A DNA stretch of 48,333 bases from Leptolyngbya sp. FACHB-261 (GTDB taxonomy: Bacteria; Cyanobacteriota; Cyanobacteriia; FACHB-261). A program made the translations under genes and the position numbers. Of this stretch, positions 10,366 to 40,308 are shown one piece after another; the first letter of the stretch is position 1; each line of letters opens with the position of its first letter. The notes under the pieces were generated by a model, which saw only the letters and a program-made list of their open reading frames with translations, did no database searches and was not told where the DNA came from. Location: positions 1 to 48,333 of the forward strand of contig NZ_JACJPL010000021.1 of assembly GCF_014696065.1 (NCBI RefSeq), in the 5' to 3' direction.

Positions 10366-11151
10366 GTGATGCGGCGCTCAAACAGTCACCCTCCAATGGA
10401 AAAGCCTCTCCAATTAACCTTCGCCAATGGACGAACGGCCTCTGCCATTCAAGTGGATGACTCTGTAGACCTAACTGCAGCATTGCGTAGGATGGGGCTT
10501 CAAGGTCCGCGTCCAGTGCTGGTAGTTGTGGGAGGAGCCAGCCAAATGACAGAAGAGAGCTTGGCACGGCTGCAACAACTGTTTGTTGAAGTGCTAGCGC
10601 CACTGGCTAAAGACCTAGACGCTTTTGTGGTCAACGGAGGTACTGATGCTGGGGTTATGCGCATGATGGGACAGGCTCGAGCGAAAACTGGCGCCCAGTT
10701 TCCACTGATTGGCGTCGCGCCCATTGGCACGATTGCCCTGCCTCACCAGCCTGCATCTGCGAATCAGGCAGAGCGCTTGGAGCCGAACAATACTCACTTT
10801 GTTCTGGTGCCCGGCAACGAGTGGGGAGATGAATCTCCTTGGCAAGCCCGAGTTGCCAGTACCCTTGCCAAAGATGCTCCTTCTGTGACGGTTCTGATCA
10901 ATGGTGGTGCGATCGCTTTAGTTGATGTGCAGGAAAACGTGAAAGAGGGGCGGCCCGTCGTGGTAATTGCGGGCAGTGGTCGCTTAGCCGACGAAATCGC
11001 TGATGCCAGTCTCCATCCGGAAGAGGCGGCACGCCAACCGGTAGCAGCGGTGATTGGCAGCGCTCATCTGACTCTGTTTAACCTATCGGAACCGATTGCT
11101 GAATTAGGCACAATACTGAGACAGCATCTGACCAGAGAGAAACCGGCATGA
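10366..11151 (+). CDS. SLOG-family (TRPM-like, LSDAT) nucleotide-sensor protein
   Basis: This 261-residue soluble protein has the Rossmann-like features of the SLOG superfamily, closest by eye to the prokaryotic 'SLOG in TRPM' group. Strand-loop motifs are VLVVVGGASQM (about 50-60), FVVNGGTDAGVMRMMG (about 87-102), VTVLINGGAIAL (about 175-186) and VVVIAGSGRLADEI (about 199-212). SLOG domains bind nucleotides or nucleotide-derived ligands; in TRPM channels the domain forms the N-terminal cytosolic region. The stop overlaps the start of the next, membrane-effector gene by 4 bases (ATGA), showing translational coupling. An internal ATG at 10396 (MEKPLQL) is an alternative start. The function as a sensor is inferred from family and context. 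Confidence 0.75.
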   Translation: MMRRSNSHPPMEKPLQLTFANGRTASAIQVDDSVDLTAALRRMGLQGPRPVLVVVGGASQMTEESLARLQQLFVEVLAPLAKDLDAFVVNGGTDAGVMRMMGQARAKTGAQFPLIGVAPIGTIALPHQPASANQAERLEPNNTHFVLVPGNEWGDESPWQARVASTLAKDAPSVTVLINGGAIALVDVQENVKEGRPVVVIAGSGRLADEIADASLHPEEAARQPVAAVIGSAHLTLFNLSEPIAELGTILRQHLTREKPA

Positions 11152-12272
11152 AGCCAACCACTGACGCATTAGACACGAGCCAGCGCAGTTTGACCCTGAA
11201 AGCAGCCTGGCGGCGATTCAGTGTCTATGACCGTAGTGCAACTGCGGCCCAAAGGCGCTTTATCCTAATGCGCCAGTCGATTTTGGTCCTAAGTGTTGCG
11301 GCTACAACTTTGGCAGTGCTGCAATCCAAGCTGAAGCCTCTGCAAGACTGTCAGACCCTATCAGTCCTGCAGGTCAACTTACCTTGTGGGGATTGGCTCA
11401 AGTGGGTCAGTGGCACGCTCTGGTGCTTGGTTATTCTGGCCCCGATCGTGACGAGTACTCTGCTAGCAGGAGCAGTCAAGTTCGACCGAGGCATCAACTA
11501 CATTCTGTTACGAGCTAGCGCTGAGGCAGTGAAGCGAGAGATCTTTCGCTATCGTGCTCGGACAACCCTTTATAAAGACCCTGCCGTTAGGGATGCCCAT
11601 CTGGCCCGCGAGATCCAAACCATCGGTGAACGGCTGATGAAAACCCAGGTCAATCAGGCTAGCCTGATGCCCTACGAGGACGTCAAACCTGATCCCAACA
11701 ATAAAGATGACAAATTCTCTGAATTGAATGCTCAGAATTATTTAAATTGGCGATTAATTGATCAACTAACTTGGTACCGAAAAAAAACACGAGTGCTGGA
11801 TACACAATGGCAACGTTTCCAGTGGTTAATTTATGTCCTTGGCGGTATTGGGACCTTTCTCGCTGCGATTAGTCAGGAGATTTGGATCGCTGTCAGTAAT
11901 GCTCTGGTAGGAGCTTTTGCTAGTTTTCTAGAACTTAAGCAAATGGATTCAACCCTGATAGCTTACAATCAGGCCGCCAATAATCTGGAGAATATTCTCT
12001 GCTGGTGGTATGCCCTTTCGCCAGATGCTCAGCAGCAGCCAGAGAACTTTGAGAAGCTCGTTGAGAACACCGAAACGGTGATTCAAGCTGAGGGCAATAG
12101 TTGGGTTCAAGAAATGCGGGATGCCCTAGCGGGTCTCTACAGTGATAAAGACGAGAACCGGAGAGAAGAACCTGCTCCGGATGATGCGGCTCCGCCCCCT
12201 GAGGAAGCTAGCAAAGCTCTTAGCCACTCAACTTCAACTAAAGCGGGCACAAAAGGGGATACAGCTGGCTAG
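11148..12272 (+). CDS. DUF4231/SLATT-type multi-TM effector-like protein
   Basis: The 374-residue membrane protein has two hydrophobic hairpins: TM1 about 44-62 and TM2 about 85-110, then TM3 about 224-243 and TM4 about 245-263. Between them is a helical cytosolic region of about 110 residues, and the protein ends in an acidic, disordered tail (about 315-374, rich in E, P, A, S). Two-TM modules next to SLOG or SMODS proteins are known as SLATT domains, predicted to act as membrane-perturbing or channel-forming effectors; DUF4231 is a related module. The 4-base overlap with the SLOG gene makes a two-gene sensor-effector operon very likely. No experiment is implied; activity and ligand are unknown. 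Confidence 0.72.
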   Translation: MKPTTDALDTSQRSLTLKAAWRRFSVYDRSATAAQRRFILMRQSILVLSVAATTLAVLQSKLKPLQDCQTLSVLQVNLPCGDWLKWVSGTLWCLVILAPIVTSTLLAGAVKFDRGINYILLRASAEAVKREIFRYRARTTLYKDPAVRDAHLAREIQTIGERLMKTQVNQASLMPYEDVKPDPNNKDDKFSELNAQNYLNWRLIDQLTWYRKKTRVLDTQWQRFQWLIYVLGGIGTFLAAISQEIWIAVSNALVGAFASFLELKQMDSTLIAYNQAANNLENILCWWYALSPDAQQQPENFEKLVENTETVIQAEGNSWVQEMRDALAGLYSDKDENRREEPAPDDAAPPPEEASKALSHSTSTKAGTKGDTAG

Positions 12273-32619: not shown

Positions 32620-34845
32620 GTGTCCGAGATGAATTTGGGCGGCAACCGAGCAGCTACATTGGCTGAGCCAAGCTCAGTCAATATCAAGCAACTATTCACC
32701 ATCCTGCTGCGCAGACGCTTCTGGGTATTAGGAACTTTTAGCGGCATTTTCCTTCTCGCAACTTTACTGACCATGACTGCGAGACCTAAATACCAAAGTT
32801 CTATGCAATTGTTAATACAATCTAATCTTTATCGAGATCAACAACCGGGACAGCGGGAAGGCAGCCAATTTACTGATTCTACTCTTCAGGTGGACTATAC
32901 TGCTCAGCTTAATCTACTACAGAGCTCTAAATTGATCAAACGGGCTGTGGAGATACTCGAACCTGATTATCCTGATATTACCGTCGCGGAGATCAAATCT
33001 TCTTTTGTTCTGACACAGCTACAAAGTAGGCTTGGAACTAGTATTGTGCCCAGTCAGATCTTCGATGCTACCTATATTGCTGAAGACCCTGTTAAAGCAG
33101 AGAAAGTTTTGCATGCCCTACAGAAGGTTTATCTAGACTACAACTTAGAACAACAAAACCTCCGCCTAGTCAAAGGGCTCTCGTTTATCAATCAGCAGTT
33201 GCCAAGAGTAACAGTAGATGTTACGCGGTCTGAGAGAGATTTAGAGGAGTTTCGAAAAAGGCAAGGATTGATTGACCCAAACCAACAATCGCAAATTTTA
33301 ACTGCATCTCTTAGTAATATTCAAGAGCAACGTGAGACAATTCGTGCTCAATATGAGGGAACTTTTGCCCGCTACAAATCACTACAGCAACAGCTGAACC
33401 GTTCATCTCAGACAGCTTTGCTTTCCACTCGCCTCAGCCAGTCTGGGCTCTATCAATCTTTGCTCGGAGAGATTCAGAAGACCGATTTGCTGCTAGCAGA
33501 GCAACGTTTGCGTTTCAGCGACAGCCATCCCACCGTCCAAAAGCTACAGAATCAACGACGGAGCCAAATAGCACTTCTCCAACAAGAGGCAAGTCGGGTT
33601 CTAGGAGCAGAGCCCACTGAACTGAACGGTATGGCTGATCGCTTACTCTCAGAAGGGCGATTCGGCAGTACGGATCAGAACTTGGCTAACGGACTCATAG
33701 AAGCACAAACGGCTCTATCAGATTTGAGAGCTCGTGATCTAAGTTTTGCTCAGCGAGAGCAGCAAATTCGTTCAGAGCTCAGTAGGCTACCTAGCCTGTT
33801 AGCAGATTATGATCGTCTGCAGCCAGAGGTGCAATCCAAGCGTAAAACCCTTGACAAGCTTTTAGAGGCCCAGCAGGACTTAGCCCTGCAAATTGCGCAG
33901 GGTGGATTTGATTGGCAGGTTGTTGAAGAGCCAGAGATTGGGGCACCGATTGGTCGGGGCCCTCTGCTACCCCTATTTGCAGGAACAGTCATAGGACTAG
34001 CACTAGGAATTGCCGCTGCCCTCATCCGGGATATGGCTGACGACTCTATTCATAGCTCAGATGAATTGAAGCAATTGTCTTCATTGCCTGTGTTGGGGAT
34101 GGCCCCACTTGCCACAGATCTGTCAGCTAACCCTTTGGAAAAGGCTTTACCCGCCAGTAGAAGCCAGAGCTTAGCTGACTCTGCAAACAACGTGGTTCAG
34201 TGGCAGCCTTTCCGAGAGGCAATAGATTTGATTTATCAAAATGTTGAACTGTTAGGCTTAAATGCTTCTTCACCACTAAAATCCTTAGTTGTCACCTCAG
34301 CTCTAGCGGGTGAGGGCAAATCAACAATAGCCCTAGGTTTAGCAATTAGCGCTACTCGAACACACCGCCGAGTATTGTTAATTGATGCGGATCTGCGTCG
34401 TCCGAGCCTGCACAAGCTGCTCAATCTGCCGAATGAGCAAGGGTTGAGTAATCTACTGATCAGTGGTTCCAATGCTTTCCCCATCAATAACGGTATTAAG
34501 CCATCGGGAACGCACCTGGACATTTTGACCTCTGGGCCAACCCCAGTGGACCCAGCAAAGTTGTTAAGTTCTCAATGCATGACAGAGCTGATGGCGTCGC
34601 TAGAGGAGATGTATGACTTAGTAATCCTGGATGCTCCCCCCGTTTTGGGAATGGTAGATGCTATTCTAGCGGCAAAGTGCTGCAAAGGCACAATATTAGT
34701 GGGACGCGTCGGTCAAGTAACGCGAACAGAGCTAACCCAAACTATAACGACGTTAAGCAAACTGAACGTTATTGGCATTGTGGCTAACGGAGCCAATCAC
34801 TTCACCAAAGATCTCTTAGAGGACAACCAGTCCTTAGTTGAGTGA
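32620..34845 (+). CDS. Wzc-like chain-length/BY-kinase-type protein without Tyr tail
   Basis: The 741-residue product has an N-terminal Wzz-type region with two membrane helices (about residues 31-52 and 450-465) framing a long periplasmic coiled coil. A cytosolic BY-kinase-type ATPase domain starts at about residue 560. Walker A is SALAGEGKSTIALGLA, Walker A' is VLLIDADLRRPSLHKLL, and Walker B is VILDAPPVLG. Canonical Wzc tyrosine kinases end in a Tyr cluster; this one ends in DLLEDNQSLVE with no Tyr, so autophosphorylation on a tail is not expected. It probably controls chain length and export of the polysaccharide. GTG 32620 or ATG 32629 is the start. Confidence 0.88.
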   Translation: MSEMNLGGNRAATLAEPSSVNIKQLFTILLRRRFWVLGTFSGIFLLATLLTMTARPKYQSSMQLLIQSNLYRDQQPGQREGSQFTDSTLQVDYTAQLNLLQSSKLIKRAVEILEPDYPDITVAEIKSSFVLTQLQSRLGTSIVPSQIFDATYIAEDPVKAEKVLHALQKVYLDYNLEQQNLRLVKGLSFINQQLPRVTVDVTRSERDLEEFRKRQGLIDPNQQSQILTASLSNIQEQRETIRAQYEGTFARYKSLQQQLNRSSQTALLSTRLSQSGLYQSLLGEIQKTDLLLAEQRLRFSDSHPTVQKLQNQRRSQIALLQQEASRVLGAEPTELNGMADRLLSEGRFGSTDQNLANGLIEAQTALSDLRARDLSFAQREQQIRSELSRLPSLLADYDRLQPEVQSKRKTLDKLLEAQQDLALQIAQGGFDWQVVEEPEIGAPIGRGPLLPLFAGTVIGLALGIAAALIRDMADDSIHSSDELKQLSSLPVLGMAPLATDLSANPLEKALPASRSQSLADSANNVVQWQPFREAIDLIYQNVELLGLNASSPLKSLVVTSALAGEGKSTIALGLAISATRTHRRVLLIDADLRRPSLHKLLNLPNEQGLSNLLISGSNAFPINNGIKPSGTHLDILTSGPTPVDPAKLLSSQCMTELMASLEEMYDLVILDAPPVLGMVDAILAAKCCKGTILVGRVGQVTRTELTQTITTLSKLNVIGIVANGANHFTKDLLEDNQSLVE

Positions 34846-34988: not shown

Positions 34989-35879
34989 ATGAACCAAAAT
35001 TTGTTCCGTGATAGCTTAAGAACGACCCATAGCCGTATTGTTGCTTTCGGTCTCCTTGTAGGTTTATTTTATTTGCCTGTCTGGGTAGTGAGTCTGCTAC
35101 AGCAGATTGTTAGAGGCTCCTCTGGCTCTGTACTAACGATTGCAGCTACTTGCTTGGCGGGTCGAGAACTACAGAAAATTTATGCTCAGCTCTCTCCCTC
35201 AGTTACTTCTGAGCGGGAGCGATTGTTAGGCCACGCTTTAATTCTAGGCGGGGTATTCATTTTTCCGTTCTGTCGCTTCGCCCTTTGGCCACAAGCTCTT
35301 GTTTGGCTAATGATCATGACAGGCATTGCTCTAAGCTCTTGGGGAAAAAGCTTTTTTGAGAAGAATACATTTTTGACTGCTCTCATTGTGCTCAGTGTGT
35401 ATCCAGATCCTCGTAGCCTTGCTCAAGGACTATGGAATACATTAACTCCTCCTCTTATGTTGGAGAAGCTTATGGCATGGCTTACTGGTTTAGCTCTGCA
35501 AGCTATTGGTCAACCAGCTACAGTAGATGGTGTCTACATCATTTTGTCCTCAGGTAGTGTCGAGGTTGCTTGGGGCTGTAATGGTTTTGGCATGGCCTGC
35601 TCAATGGCAGGATCTGGTTTACTTCTAGGCCTATTCTTTAAGCAGAAGTGGAGCCAGACCGTGAGCTTAATGGCTGCAGGCATTGTCCTAGCTCTAGTCC
35701 TTAATGTTCCCCGCATTATGGTGATGACCTTGGCTGCCGTCTACTGGGGAGAAGAGTCCTTCAAGTTCTGGCATGGACCTTGGGGCGGGCAAATTTTCTC
35801 AAGCATTCTATTCACTCTCTACTACTATCTAGTGATTAAAAGGCTCTTGTCTCAACCTTCCTTAAAGTCTCAAGCCTGA
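34989..35879 (+). CDS. Cyanoexosortase
   Basis: A membrane protein of 296 residues with about 7-8 helices. The exosortase active-site triad is visible: Cys in VEVAWGCNGFGMACSMAG (about residues 196-213), Arg in LNVPRIMVMTL (about 243), and His in FWHGPWGGQIFSS (about 260). Exosortases are thought to cleave and sort proteins bearing a PEP-CTERM-type tail, as sortases do, usually in bacteria that make extracellular polysaccharide. The adjacent downstream gene encodes a protein with a PTPA-CTERM tail, its probable substrate. The exact cyanoexosortase subtype was not assigned. Confidence 0.88.
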   Translation: MNQNLFRDSLRTTHSRIVAFGLLVGLFYLPVWVVSLLQQIVRGSSGSVLTIAATCLAGRELQKIYAQLSPSVTSERERLLGHALILGGVFIFPFCRFALWPQALVWLMIMTGIALSSWGKSFFEKNTFLTALIVLSVYPDPRSLAQGLWNTLTPPLMLEKLMAWLTGLALQAIGQPATVDGVYIILSSGSVEVAWGCNGFGMACSMAGSGLLLGLFFKQKWSQTVSLMAAGIVLALVLNVPRIMVMTLAAVYWGEESFKFWHGPWGGQIFSSILFTLYYYLVIKRLLSQPSLKSQA

Positions 35880-36450
35880 CATAAAAATTATTAATAGGCA
35901 GCGAAACTCCACTACTGAATTTCTTGCTAGGGTAAAGGGTTTTGAGTGGTTAGCGGCTGCTCTCGGAGTCTATCACCCAGTATCATTCTCCTCATTTGCT
36001 GAGTCTCTTGGCACTCTAACCACTAGTAATTGTTAGATAAACCACTGTTTGTTGTTTGCTACTTGAAATGGACAAATTTAGAACAGTAGTAATAGCAGAG
36101 CTATGCAGGCGCTAGATATCGTGGAGAGGATACAGGGCAACAACTAAAAGGCAAACTCCTCAAGTTAGGTTTTGGAAACCATATGACCATTTCTGCTCAA
36201 GGTAACACAGACCTATTTCTAACTTAGTGAGTTTAAAGAGCTCATGAACTTTTGAGCGGCAGCTTTTGTCACAACTCGATGTGTGTAATGATCACTAACA
36301 AAGGTAGGCATAGCATTGACGCGCCTGCTTAGACAGCTATGGGTGCATAAGAGCAGTTGATGCCTGGTCAGATTTTGTAATGTACCAACATTCTCTATGG
36401 CCAGCACCAACTGTTTTGAACTAGACGAGCACTCTAAATAGGTTCTAACC
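35880..36450. other. Intergenic region between exosortase and its likely substrate
   Basis: About 570 bases. Cyanoexosortase genes are often followed by a small associated gene, but no convincing frame is present. A plus-strand frame near 36090-36230 (including GKLLKLGFGNHM) has no start, and a minus-strand frame at 36219-36488 is compositionally odd. It may hold the promoter of the PTPA-CTERM gene. Confidence 0.45.
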
Positions 36451-36873
36451 ATGAAACTCAAAACCATTTGCATGAGCACTATGCTCACTGCTGTGATGAT
36501 TGCAGGGACAACTTTGAGCCGCCAAGAAGCAGCTCAGGCATCGCCACTGGTAATGAATCCGCCAGTAGTGCTAGGCGCTACTCAGAACGATAGTATCTGG
36601 GCTAACCTCTTGAATCTTTTTGGCCTGAGCGATCCTTTCAATGGTCAAACGACCACTAATGGGAACGGGGACAAAGCTGCTAGAGACAAGAAAGGCACGA
36701 CAGGAACGGTGGATATCAATGGTTCAGCTGAGAAGCCAGATATCCAAGTCAAGAACCTCACGCCGAACCCAAAGCCGGTTCCTACCCCTGCGCTACTGCC
36801 AGGTCTTATTGGCTTAGGCGTAGTTGCAATGCGCAAGCGCAGAGCTGAGGAGGCAGCAGCTAGTCAGCAATAG
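36451..36873 (+). CDS. PTPA-CTERM tailed secreted protein, probable exosortase substrate
   Basis: The 140-residue product has a signal peptide (MKLKTICMSTMLTAVMIAGT, likely cleaved near residues 26-31), a low-complexity middle rich in Asn, Gly, Lys and Thr, and a tripartite C-terminal tail. The tail has PTPA at residues 111-114, a hydrophobic helix LLPGLIGLGVVAM (115-127) and an RKRR cluster (128-131). This matches the PTPA-CTERM variant of PEP-CTERM sorting signals. It lies just downstream of a cyanoexosortase, as expected for its substrate. After the cluster there are nine extra residues (AEEAAASQQ), longer than many tails. Confidence 0.82.
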   Translation: MKLKTICMSTMLTAVMIAGTTLSRQEAAQASPLVMNPPVVLGATQNDSIWANLLNLFGLSDPFNGQTTTNGNGDKAARDKKGTTGTVDINGSAEKPDIQVKNLTPNPKPVPTPALLPGLIGLGVVAMRKRRAEEAAASQQ

Positions 36874-37240: not shown

Positions 37241-38305
37241 ATGACTGAAGTTAAACGCGCGCTGATCACAGGTATTACGGGTCAGGATGGCTCTTATCTT
37301 GCTGAATTATTACTCGGCAAAGGTTATGAGGTCCACGGCATCATCCGCCGTACCTCCACCTTCAACACTGACCGCATTGATCCCATCTATCAAGATCCTC
37401 ACACCGACGATGCCCGTTTATTTCTGCACTACGGTGACCTCACCGACGGCACCACACTGCGCCGTGTTCTAGAAGAAGTTAAGCCCGTTGAAATCTTCAA
37501 CCTGGGTGCCCAATCCCATGTCCGGGTCAGCTTCGACTCCCCCGAATACACCGTTGACGCAGTTGGCATGGGAACCCTTCGCCTTCTCGAAGCGGTTCGT
37601 GACTATCAACAGCGCACTGGCATCCAGGTTCGGTTCTATCAAGCAGGTTCTTCTGAAATGTTTGGCTTAGTCCAAGCAGTTCCCCAGAGTGAAACCACTC
37701 CCTTCTATCCTCGTAGCCCCTATGCCTGCGCCAAAGTTTATGCACACTGGCAAACCATCAACTACCGAGAATCCTACGGGTTGTTCGCTTGCAACGGCAT
37801 CCTATTCAACCACGAAGGTCCCCGGCGCGGTGAAACATTTGTGACCCGCAAAGTTACTCGGGCGCTCGCTCGTATCATGGCCGGTCAGCAGGACAAACTC
37901 TATCTAGGCAACCTTGACGCCAAACGCGACTGGGGCTACGCCAAAGACTATGTTCAAGCCATGTGGTCAATGTTGCAGCAAGAGGAAGCGGATGATTATG
38001 TGATCGCGACTGGCGAGACCCATTCTATTCGTGAGTTTTTAGACGTAGCCTTTGGGCTAGTCAATCTGGACTGGCATCAATATGTAGAAATTGACCCTCG
38101 CTACTTCCGGCCCGCCGAGGTGGAGTTGCTCTTGGGCGACTCTACTAAAGCCAGAACCAAACTGAACTGGCAGCCCTCGGTCACCTTTGCACAACTAGTC
38201 GAGATCATGGTGAACGCCGATCTGCAAGCCTTAGGTCTGCCCCCTGCCACTTCTTCTAGCGAATCAACCGATGTCGCCTTTATCCGTCAGGCTATTGCGA
38301 TTTGA
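37241..38305 (+). CDS. gmd: GDP-mannose 4,6-dehydratase
   Basis: The extended SDR enzyme (354 residues) has the glycine motif [17 protein letters not shown] (about residues 9-25), [17 protein letters not shown] and the catalytic YACAK motif in [20 protein letters not shown], with Ser/Thr in [29 protein letters not shown] is diagnostic for Gmd. It converts GDP-D-mannose to GDP-4-keto-6-deoxy-D-mannose, the first step to GDP-L-fucose. It is followed by fcl with a gap of only 37 bases, giving a two-gene operon that supplies fucose to the polysaccharide. TAGGAGA precedes the ATG. Confidence 0.95.
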
Positions 38306-38342
38306 GCCACCCACTCACTTTTGACCTTTACCCTTGACCACT

Positions 38343-39296
38343 ATGAGTTCAGGTACCCTGGCGCAAAAGCGCATTCTTGTCACGGGCGGATCTGGTTTCC
38401 TGGGGCGGCATGTCGTTGCCGCTCTAGCAGCCCTTGGCGCTGACCCTAACAAAATCACTGTCCCCCGCTCCAAAGACTTCGATCTCCGGCAGATGGAGGT
38501 TTGCCAGCAGCTTAGCCAGCATCAAGATGTCATCGTGCACTTAGCTGCCCATGTTGGTGGGATCGGCCTCAATCGTCAAAAACCCGCCGAACTGTTCTAT
38601 GACAACTTGATGATGGGCACCCAGCTCATTCACGCTGCTCATCAAGCGGAAGTCGAGAAGTTCGTCTGTGTCGGCACGATCTGTGCCTACCCTAAATTTG
38701 TCTCTGTTCCTTTTCAGGAAGATGACCTCTGGGCTGGTTATCCTGAGGAAACTAACGCGCCCTATGGCATCGCCAAAAAAGCGCTGCTGGTTCAATTGCA
38801 AGCCTATCGCCAGCAGTATGGTTTTAACGGGGTTTACCTCCTGCCTGTCAATCTTTACGGTCCTTGGGATAACTTTGATCCCAACAGTTCTCATGTCATT
38901 CCTGCCTTGATTCGTAAGATCTATGAGGCCCAGCAACAGGGGCTCAAGCAACTCCCAGTTTGGGGTGATGGCAGCCCAACCCGCGAATTTCTCTACGTTG
39001 AAGATGCTGCTCGCGGCATTGCTCTGGCCGCACTCAACTACAACCAATCCGAGCCAGTTAATCTAGGTACAGGCAGCGAAATCTCAATCCGAGATTTAGT
39101 GAATTCGATTAGTGAGCTAATGGGCTTTGAAGGTGAGATTGCCTGGGAAATCAACCAACCCAACGGTCAGCCTCGGCGTTGCCTTGACACCCGCCGAGCC
39201 AAGGAATTCTTTGGCTTCTCTGCCGAAGTCAGCCTGCAAGAAGGGTTAGAGCGAACCATCGATTGGTACCGCCAACATGCAACTCCGTTGAAATAG
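38343..39296 (+). CDS. fcl: GDP-L-fucose synthase
   Basis: The 317-residue enzyme has the SDR motif [18 protein letters not shown], the catalytic YGIAK motif in [16 protein letters not shown] and [15 protein letters not shown], characteristic of GDP-4-keto-6-deoxy-mannose 3,5-epimerase-4-reductase. It uses the product of gmd and NADPH to make GDP-L-fucose. ATG 38343 is preferred; a TTG lies three codons upstream. A strong terminator about 90 bases downstream closes the operon, and with it the polysaccharide locus. Confidence 0.94.
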
Positions 39297-39939: not shown

Positions 39940-40308
39940 ATGTCACGTCAGAAACGCACCTCCAAAGTCCTCGAAAGAGCTGAGCGTCGGGCCTCTGGTC
40001 TCGTCACTATTGGGACCAACTTAGACCTGGGTAACGCGCTTACCCTAAGCTCTTTTCGTGACCTCATTGAACAGATGCGCGCTAAGCAAGAAGCCTACAA
40101 CTCCACCCTGTCTCTCATCGACTCTACCTATGTCGAAATGATGGATTTAGAGAAAACCTTGGGCGATTGGACTGAGAAAATGCTGTATGGCGTCGCCTGC
40201 AAATATGGCAAAGATAGCCGCGAATACGAGATGGCCGGTGGTGTACGCAAGAGCGTTCAGCTCAAGCGACGGTCCACGAGCAGAATTAAGTCCGGAACAG
40301 TAACCTAG
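39940..40308 (+). CDS. Hypothetical protein of 122 residues
   Basis: The product is basic and mostly helical: an Arg/Lys-rich start (MSRQKRTSKVLERAERRASG), then SSFRDLIEQMRAKQEAYNST and ACKYGKDSREYEMAGGVRKS, ending in a basic tail. The central part (about residues 35-75) looks like a coiled coil. I do not know a named family. Codon use is normal, supporting expression. It follows the degenerate repeat tract and ends about 50 bases before a terminator shared with the GH2 gene on the other strand. It resembles a small nucleic-acid-binding or structural protein, which is inference. Confidence 0.6.
   Translation: MSRQKRTSKVLERAERRASGLVTIGTNLDLGNALTLSSFRDLIEQMRAKQEAYNSTLSLIDSTYVEMMDLEKTLGDWTEKMLYGVACKYGKDSREYEMAGGVRKSVQLKRRSTSRIKSGTVT

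Follow-up and report, generated by a model that had tools for sequence, protein, structure and literature searches.

Gene content of the locus

The window, by which we mean the whole 48,333-nucleotide stretch of DNA analysed here, is the entire contig C21 of a 36-contig, 6.95 Mb assembly. On its forward strand, a gene for cyanoexosortase C (CrtC; 34989..35879, +), a multi-helix membrane protein of 296 aa, is followed after an intergenic gap of 571 bp (35880..36450, +) by the gene of a short PTPA-CTERM protein of 140 aa (36451..36873, +). Upstream of crtC lies a Wzc-like chain-length/tyrosine autokinase (BY-kinase/Wzc; 32620..34845, +), which matches TIGR01007 above its cut-off, and downstream of the pair are Gmd (GDP-mannose 4,6-dehydratase) and a GDP-fucose-synthase-like epimerase (gmd/fcl; 37241..39296, +; Pfam PF16363 and PF01370). 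Flanked by the Wzc-type kinase and gmd/fcl, the crtC/PTPA pair sits in a Wzx/Wzc-type polysaccharide locus, and the Wzc and GDP-fucose neighbours named in an earlier note on this DNA are confirmed by these matches. The 571-bp gap holds no gene or trace of HpsJ-like-C, and a promoter and terminator scan of it stayed at or below shuffle expectation.

The earlier note had described an intact exosortase with a Cys, Arg, His triad and had proposed to assign its subtype with TIGRFAM-type models. Among NCBIfam models it matches cyanoexosortase C (NF033464) best, full-length at 376.3 bits (E 9.6e-113) with a curated cut-off of 225 bits, compared to 51 bits for the sister model CrtA and 46 bits for CrtB; Pfam PF09721 (Exosortase_EpsH) matches as well (E 1.9e-31). 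The ORF is complete, with the catalytic cysteine C197 in the motif WGCNG (codon 35577-35579, +), the catalytic arginine R242 in NVPR (codon 35712-35714, +) and the catalytic histidine H262 in FWHGPWG (codon 35772-35774, +). These three residues, together with G199, N239 and G266, are invariant in an alignment of 35 CrtC homologues, and the window CrtC carries all three motifs of the EpsH family, C-x-G, N-x-x-R and H-x-x-x-G (PMC1569441). AlphaFold2, run with the 35 homologues, returned a confident multi-helix model (mean pLDDT 92.2); solved structures, searched by sequence and by fold, include no relative.

The ORF of the 140-aa protein is also intact. It begins with a predicted signal peptide read from the sequence (residues 1-30, ending in ...RQEAAQA; MKLKTICMSTMLTAVMIAGTTLSRQEAAQA; 36451..36540, +), continues with a low-complexity linker rich in N, T, G, P and K (36541..36777, +) and closes with a PTPA-CTERM sorting tail of 26 residues (VPTPALLPGLIGLGVVAMRKRRAEEA; 36778..36855, +). 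The tail matches NF033465 at 52.3 bits (E 4.6e-14) in a protein scan, over residues 110-135 of 140, with a curated cut-off of 29 bits, and in a whole-genome search it is the top PTPA match of the genome (54.6 bits). NF033465 matches are centred on the tail in the genomes of 59 relatives. The predicted mature chain is about 82 aa, and the composition of the protein is 12% N, 10% each of T, G and P, and 8% K. The protein had been read before as small and secreted, with a PTPA motif and an RKRR cluster, and as short, low in complexity and rich in Asn, Lys and Thr; both descriptions hold, the RKRR being present, and Gly and Pro can be added to the list.

Exosortases and PTPA-type tails elsewhere in the genome

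The genome encodes three exosortases: one CrtB (contig C31) and two CrtCs (C21 and C18). The CrtB gene shares a hormogonium-polysaccharide-type locus with genes for HpsJ and a cyanoexosortase B-associated protein. The C18 CrtC scores 379 bits compared to 376 for the window CrtC, to which it is 52% identical, and it stands in a separate EPS locus (L018:7570-9964) with the order PTPA protein (220 aa), HpsJ-like-C (NF050019, 260 bits), crtC. The earlier note had held that a better-matching exosortase elsewhere would speak against the pairing. The C18 CrtC is an equally good match and lies beside a PTPA protein of its own, so that this objection applies by half.

A genome-wide search for more PTPA-CTERM proteins, also proposed beforehand, found up to five others besides the window protein, and the genome as a whole has four PTPA-type tails over the cut-off plus two weaker ones. 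For example, contig C27 carries at about 53-54.5 kb (L019:6485-8516) three paralogous genes in tandem, whose secreted products end in PAPA/PAPG/PVPG-type tails; of these, the first alone passes the PTPA-CTERM cut-off. At about 795 kb the same contig encodes a 506-aa protein that is over the cut-off when the genome is searched and reaches 26.6 bits, compared to the required 29, in the protein scan. This secreted protein (L020:6518-8038) is glycoside-hydrolase-like by eye and has a borderline PTPA tail (IPAPALLPGLIGL); a protein resembling it, but with no tail to be seen, is encoded in the vicinity of the C18 CrtC locus (L018:17066-18001).

Instead of one enzyme with one target, the window genome thus has two CrtCs and four tails over the cut-off plus two weaker. 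Both CrtCs are good matches with a PTPA neighbour, and therefore either could process the window protein; given the additional CrtC and the other PTPA-type proteins, up to five in number, the window pair is not exclusive. The labels given earlier to the locus, namely a cyanoexosortase with a PTPA protein in an EPS setting, are all three right, but a private pairing is not proven in view of the second CrtC and the further PTPA tails.

Co-occurrence of CrtC and the PTPA tag

Across 292 cyanobacterial genomes, an even draw from the phylum, CrtC is found over its cut-off in 4 and PTPA-CTERM over its cut-off in the identical 4 (2.5e-7 by chance, with the window genome left out). Likewise, PTPA-like tails are present in all seven genomes with CrtC over the cut-off among the 59 relatives. 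Because of this co-occurrence in both sets, the CrtC enzyme and the PTPA tag belong together. Both partners already have names in NCBIfam, and its consecutive models NF033464/NF033465 already point to the pairing. Proximity was assessed as well: six PTPA-type genes in 6.95 Mb would leave about 0.25% of genes with such a gene within 1 kb, and each of the two CrtC genes of the window genome has one within about 0.85 kb, a nearness that is not due to chance. A literature search found no report on any PTPA-CTERM protein or on a cyanoexosortase C substrate, and in the literature naming cyanoexosortases we found none that treats CrtC.

Departure from the usual module

Among 42 CrtC loci from named genomes, the order PTPA, HpsJ-like-C, crtC is recurrent, and HpsJ-like-C is present at most CrtC loci other than the window locus. 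The window contig has no gene or trace of HpsJ-like-C (NF050019); genome-wide, the search matched C18 and, weakly, C31, C26 and C28, with C18 the sole match over the cut-off. Taking HpsJ-like-C beside crtC as the mark of the canonical module, the window locus falls outside it. In addition to this missing gene, crtC precedes the substrate gene and the substrate is short: 140 aa compared to a median of about 212 aa for 57 other PTPA-type proteins. Other crtC genes without HpsJ-like-C (L055, L059, L064, L076, L084) have no CTERM protein that we could find nearby; in the L055 genome, HpsJ-like-C and a PTPA gene are found together, away from crtC.

Reduced CrtC pairs in Nostocaceae

CrtC exceeds its cut-off in 16 out of 218 Nostocaceae genomes, PTPA-CTERM in only 6. 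The canonical module is present in 2 of the 16, both from one genus that groups with Nodularia. The other 14 have a stripped-down form in which one short CTERM protein adjoins crtC. HpsJ-like-C exceeds its cut-off genome-wide in both canonical genomes and in none of the 14 reduced ones.

Four of the reduced genomes (including HT-58-2 and Tolypothrix campylonemoides) encode exactly one PTPA-CTERM protein each. It is a mini protein of 80-99 aa whose gene immediately precedes crtC and whose mature chain is predicted at about 30-40 residues. Haft and colleagues speak of a dedicated system where a sorting enzyme has one target only (PMC3237569), and these four genomes fit that definition. They match rhombosortase/GlyGly-CTERM (PMC3237569) in having one enzyme with a single adjacent target, although the enzyme family is unrelated and the window genome has more than one possible target. 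As a separate observation, the four shortest PTPA minis (L056, L058, L135, L138) contain two Cys in the mature chain of about 30-40 residues, which is unusual because PEP-CTERM-type proteins are Cys-poor (PMC1569441).

The remaining ten genomes have no PTPA match over the cut-off, and in each of them crtC adjoins the gene of a short CTERM protein. In these recoded minis, a signal peptide is followed by a linker rich in N, S and T, and the tail has the form VP[V/A]P[V/L/I]LIPGL...RKHRQ (PVPx/PAPV-LIPGL); among those scanned as proteins, no tail exceeded 21 bits with NF033465, below the cut-off of 29. Linker repeats bring one of the minis to 202 aa. The PVPx tails explain why these ten Nostocaceae genomes have CrtC without a PTPA-CTERM match above the NF033465 cut-off, and the ten are likely to be dedicated as well. 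The recoded minis (L130-L134, L136, L137, L139-L141) also share a conserved SLEIQWxLGFIPWP-like motif.

The CrtCs of these ten genomes form one clade (100/100) on a long branch. In all ten, the residue beside the catalytic Arg is changed from P241 to A or V (N-x-P-R to N-x-A/V-R), whereas Pro is found in 46 of the 46 other CrtCs with a residue at this position; a second change, G254 to D, occurs in 10/10 and in none but these. Enzyme and tag appear to have changed together, which is suggestive of a bearing on specificity; since this is a single evolutionary event, the co-change is suggestive and not statistical proof. This natural swap of CrtC and tail offers a direct test of specificity residues. 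The combination of CrtC and mini protein recurs in some relatives as a stand-alone pair, and its altered tag escapes the current NCBI model.

Surroundings differ too. With the EPS proteins of the window, C18 and C31 as queries, EPS-type genes were found near 0 of 9 Nostocaceae mini loci (those flanked by 5 kb or more on each side) compared to 20 of 26 other CrtC loci, by a screen conservative enough that flippase-like and GT2-like genes 7-10 kb off in HT-58-2 went uncounted. The association with EPS genes claimed for the window pair thus stands for that locus and is not a constant of the mini arrangement.

The short partners also bear on whether the window locus is simply degenerating after duplication, with its mini protein a remnant of a larger PTPA protein. 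The missing HpsJ-like-C, the 571-bp gap and the short, low-complexity body would all fit such decay. Nonetheless both ORFs and the CrtC motifs are intact, the window tail is the best PTPA match of its genome at 54.6 bits, and short partners adjoining crtC are conserved in 14 other genomes, so that we regard decay as improbable.

Origin of the window pair

Next to the Nostocaceae minis, the window protein is similar in the signal-peptide region and has a body without detectable homology. An HMM of the mini family scores the window protein at 24.9 bits, and none of 57 other PTPA-type proteins scores above 8.9 bits; the match spans residues 1-31 of the window protein only, which is the signal-peptide region. 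The linker (36541..36777) has no detectable homologue and is missed by a body-only HMM of the Nostocaceae minis.

In a tree of CrtC, the window, C18 and 14 Nostocaceae sequences are grouped weakly (81/40), path lengths place the C18 CrtC closest to the window CrtC, and in the best tree this canonical CrtC falls inside the group of window and minis (95/91). Neither the window and minis as one clade (p-AU 0.38) nor the window and C18 as sisters (p-AU 0.30) is rejected. Because the tree rejects neither grouping and the signal-peptide region alone matches the minis, two origins are allowed for the window pair: an old kinship with the dedicated pairs, or a local duplication whose product arrived at the same form.

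If the window and Nostocaceae pairs descend from one dedicated mini system, the window pair would have been drawn into the EPS locus later. Such common ancestry accords with the similar signal-peptide region, with the comparable length (140 aa compared to mostly 80-142 aa), with the N-rich linker of the window protein, with the absence of HpsJ-like-C at the window locus and with the p-AU of 0.38 for the joint clade. It is harder to reconcile with the position of the C18 CrtC inside the group in the best tree (95/91), with bodies that cannot be aligned and with the unlike gene order, in which the window substrate is downstream of crtC and the minis are upstream. We hold this origin to be possible, somewhat short of an even chance.

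The tree equally touches the question of whether the window CrtC is dedicated at all. Both CrtCs could be interchangeable and serve all PTPA-type proteins from a shared pool, the window pair being a plain duplicate that lost its HpsJ partner. The short path and 52% identity between the two enzymes point this way, as do the near-identical tails of the PTPA proteins (PTPALLPGLIGLG compared to PAPALLPGLVGLG) and the p-AU of 0.30 for window and C18 as sisters. However, HpsJ-like-C is missing from the window locus, and the substrate there is an unrelated one of its own, whose signal peptide is nearer to the dedicated Nostocaceae minis than that of any of the 57 other PTPA-type proteins. To a shared pool we give somewhat less than even credence.

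Proposed function

We consider it quite likely that the window encodes a reduced cyanoexosortase C/PTPA-CTERM sorting pair whose substrate is a mini protein, and this is probably a dedicated, reduced variant of a known system. The adjacent genes, the scores far over the cut-offs and the co-occurrence across genomes agree with cyanoexosortase C/PTPA-CTERM as modelled by NF033464/NF033465 and NF050019, from which the window pair differs by the lack of HpsJ-like-C at the locus, by the order crtC then substrate and by the 140-aa substrate. More tentatively, CrtC may have diverged into two forms, one that works with HpsJ-like-C on many targets and one, dedicated, that lost HpsJ-like-C and serves one mini protein. 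One branch of the latter would have been recoded from PTPA to PVPx with the change beside the catalytic Arg, and the window would carry a dedicated-type pair in an EPS locus, beside a multi-target system elsewhere in the genome.

The sorting steps proposed here are modelled on exosortases (PMC1569441) and on CrtB in Nostoc (PMC12188702). The 140-aa protein would be exported by Sec and lose its signal peptide; it would then stay anchored in the inner membrane by its PTPA tail, the RKRR cluster facing the cytoplasm. Cys197 of CrtC, aided by Arg242 and His262, would then cut at or near PTPA and the tail would be removed, presumably by the window CrtC and not by the C18 CrtC. The low-complexity chain of about 80 residues might thereby be freed, or be passed to a putative acceptor bound for the cell surface or matrix.

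Since the pair sits within a Wzx/Wzc-type polysaccharide locus, a role at the cell-polysaccharide interface seems most likely. A part as linker or matrix component would suit the predicted mature chain, which has about 82 residues and is rich in N, T, G, P and K, and we infer that it may be retained with, or linked to, the polysaccharide. Cyanoexosortase B/PEP-CTERM of Nostoc punctiforme, which belongs to the same superfamily with an inferred mechanism alike, is tied to polysaccharide adhesion: deletion of CrtB in Nostoc depleted PEP-CTERM proteins from the exoproteome and weakened adhesion to polysaccharide (PMC12188702). There, CrtB is the sole exosortase for about 35 PEP-CTERM proteins (PMC12188702); in the window genome, a CrtB is encoded on C31 besides the CrtCs. 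With PEP-CTERM/EpsH (PMC1569441), the window pair shares a tripartite tail, the Cys-Arg-His motifs, the linkage to EPS, targets of the N/S/T-rich kind and a large gap before the target gene, but it has PTPA instead of PEP and a single linked mini target. One enzyme with one target of 30-80 mature residues is close to the simplest setting for following tail cleavage and the partner of the new C-terminus.

Other features of the window

A scan of the whole window with Rfam and one of the neighbouring small genes with PADLOC gave no match. At 10366-12272, a SLOG (LSDAT_prok) protein lies beside SLATT_1/DUF4231, an arrangement without a PADLOC match that recalls nucleotide-signal effector pairs. 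Finally, the 122-aa protein encoded at 39940-40308, which belongs to no known family, has a homologue in no compared locus other than L107, where it is found about 0.7 kb from the crtC of one relative (L107:286-750).
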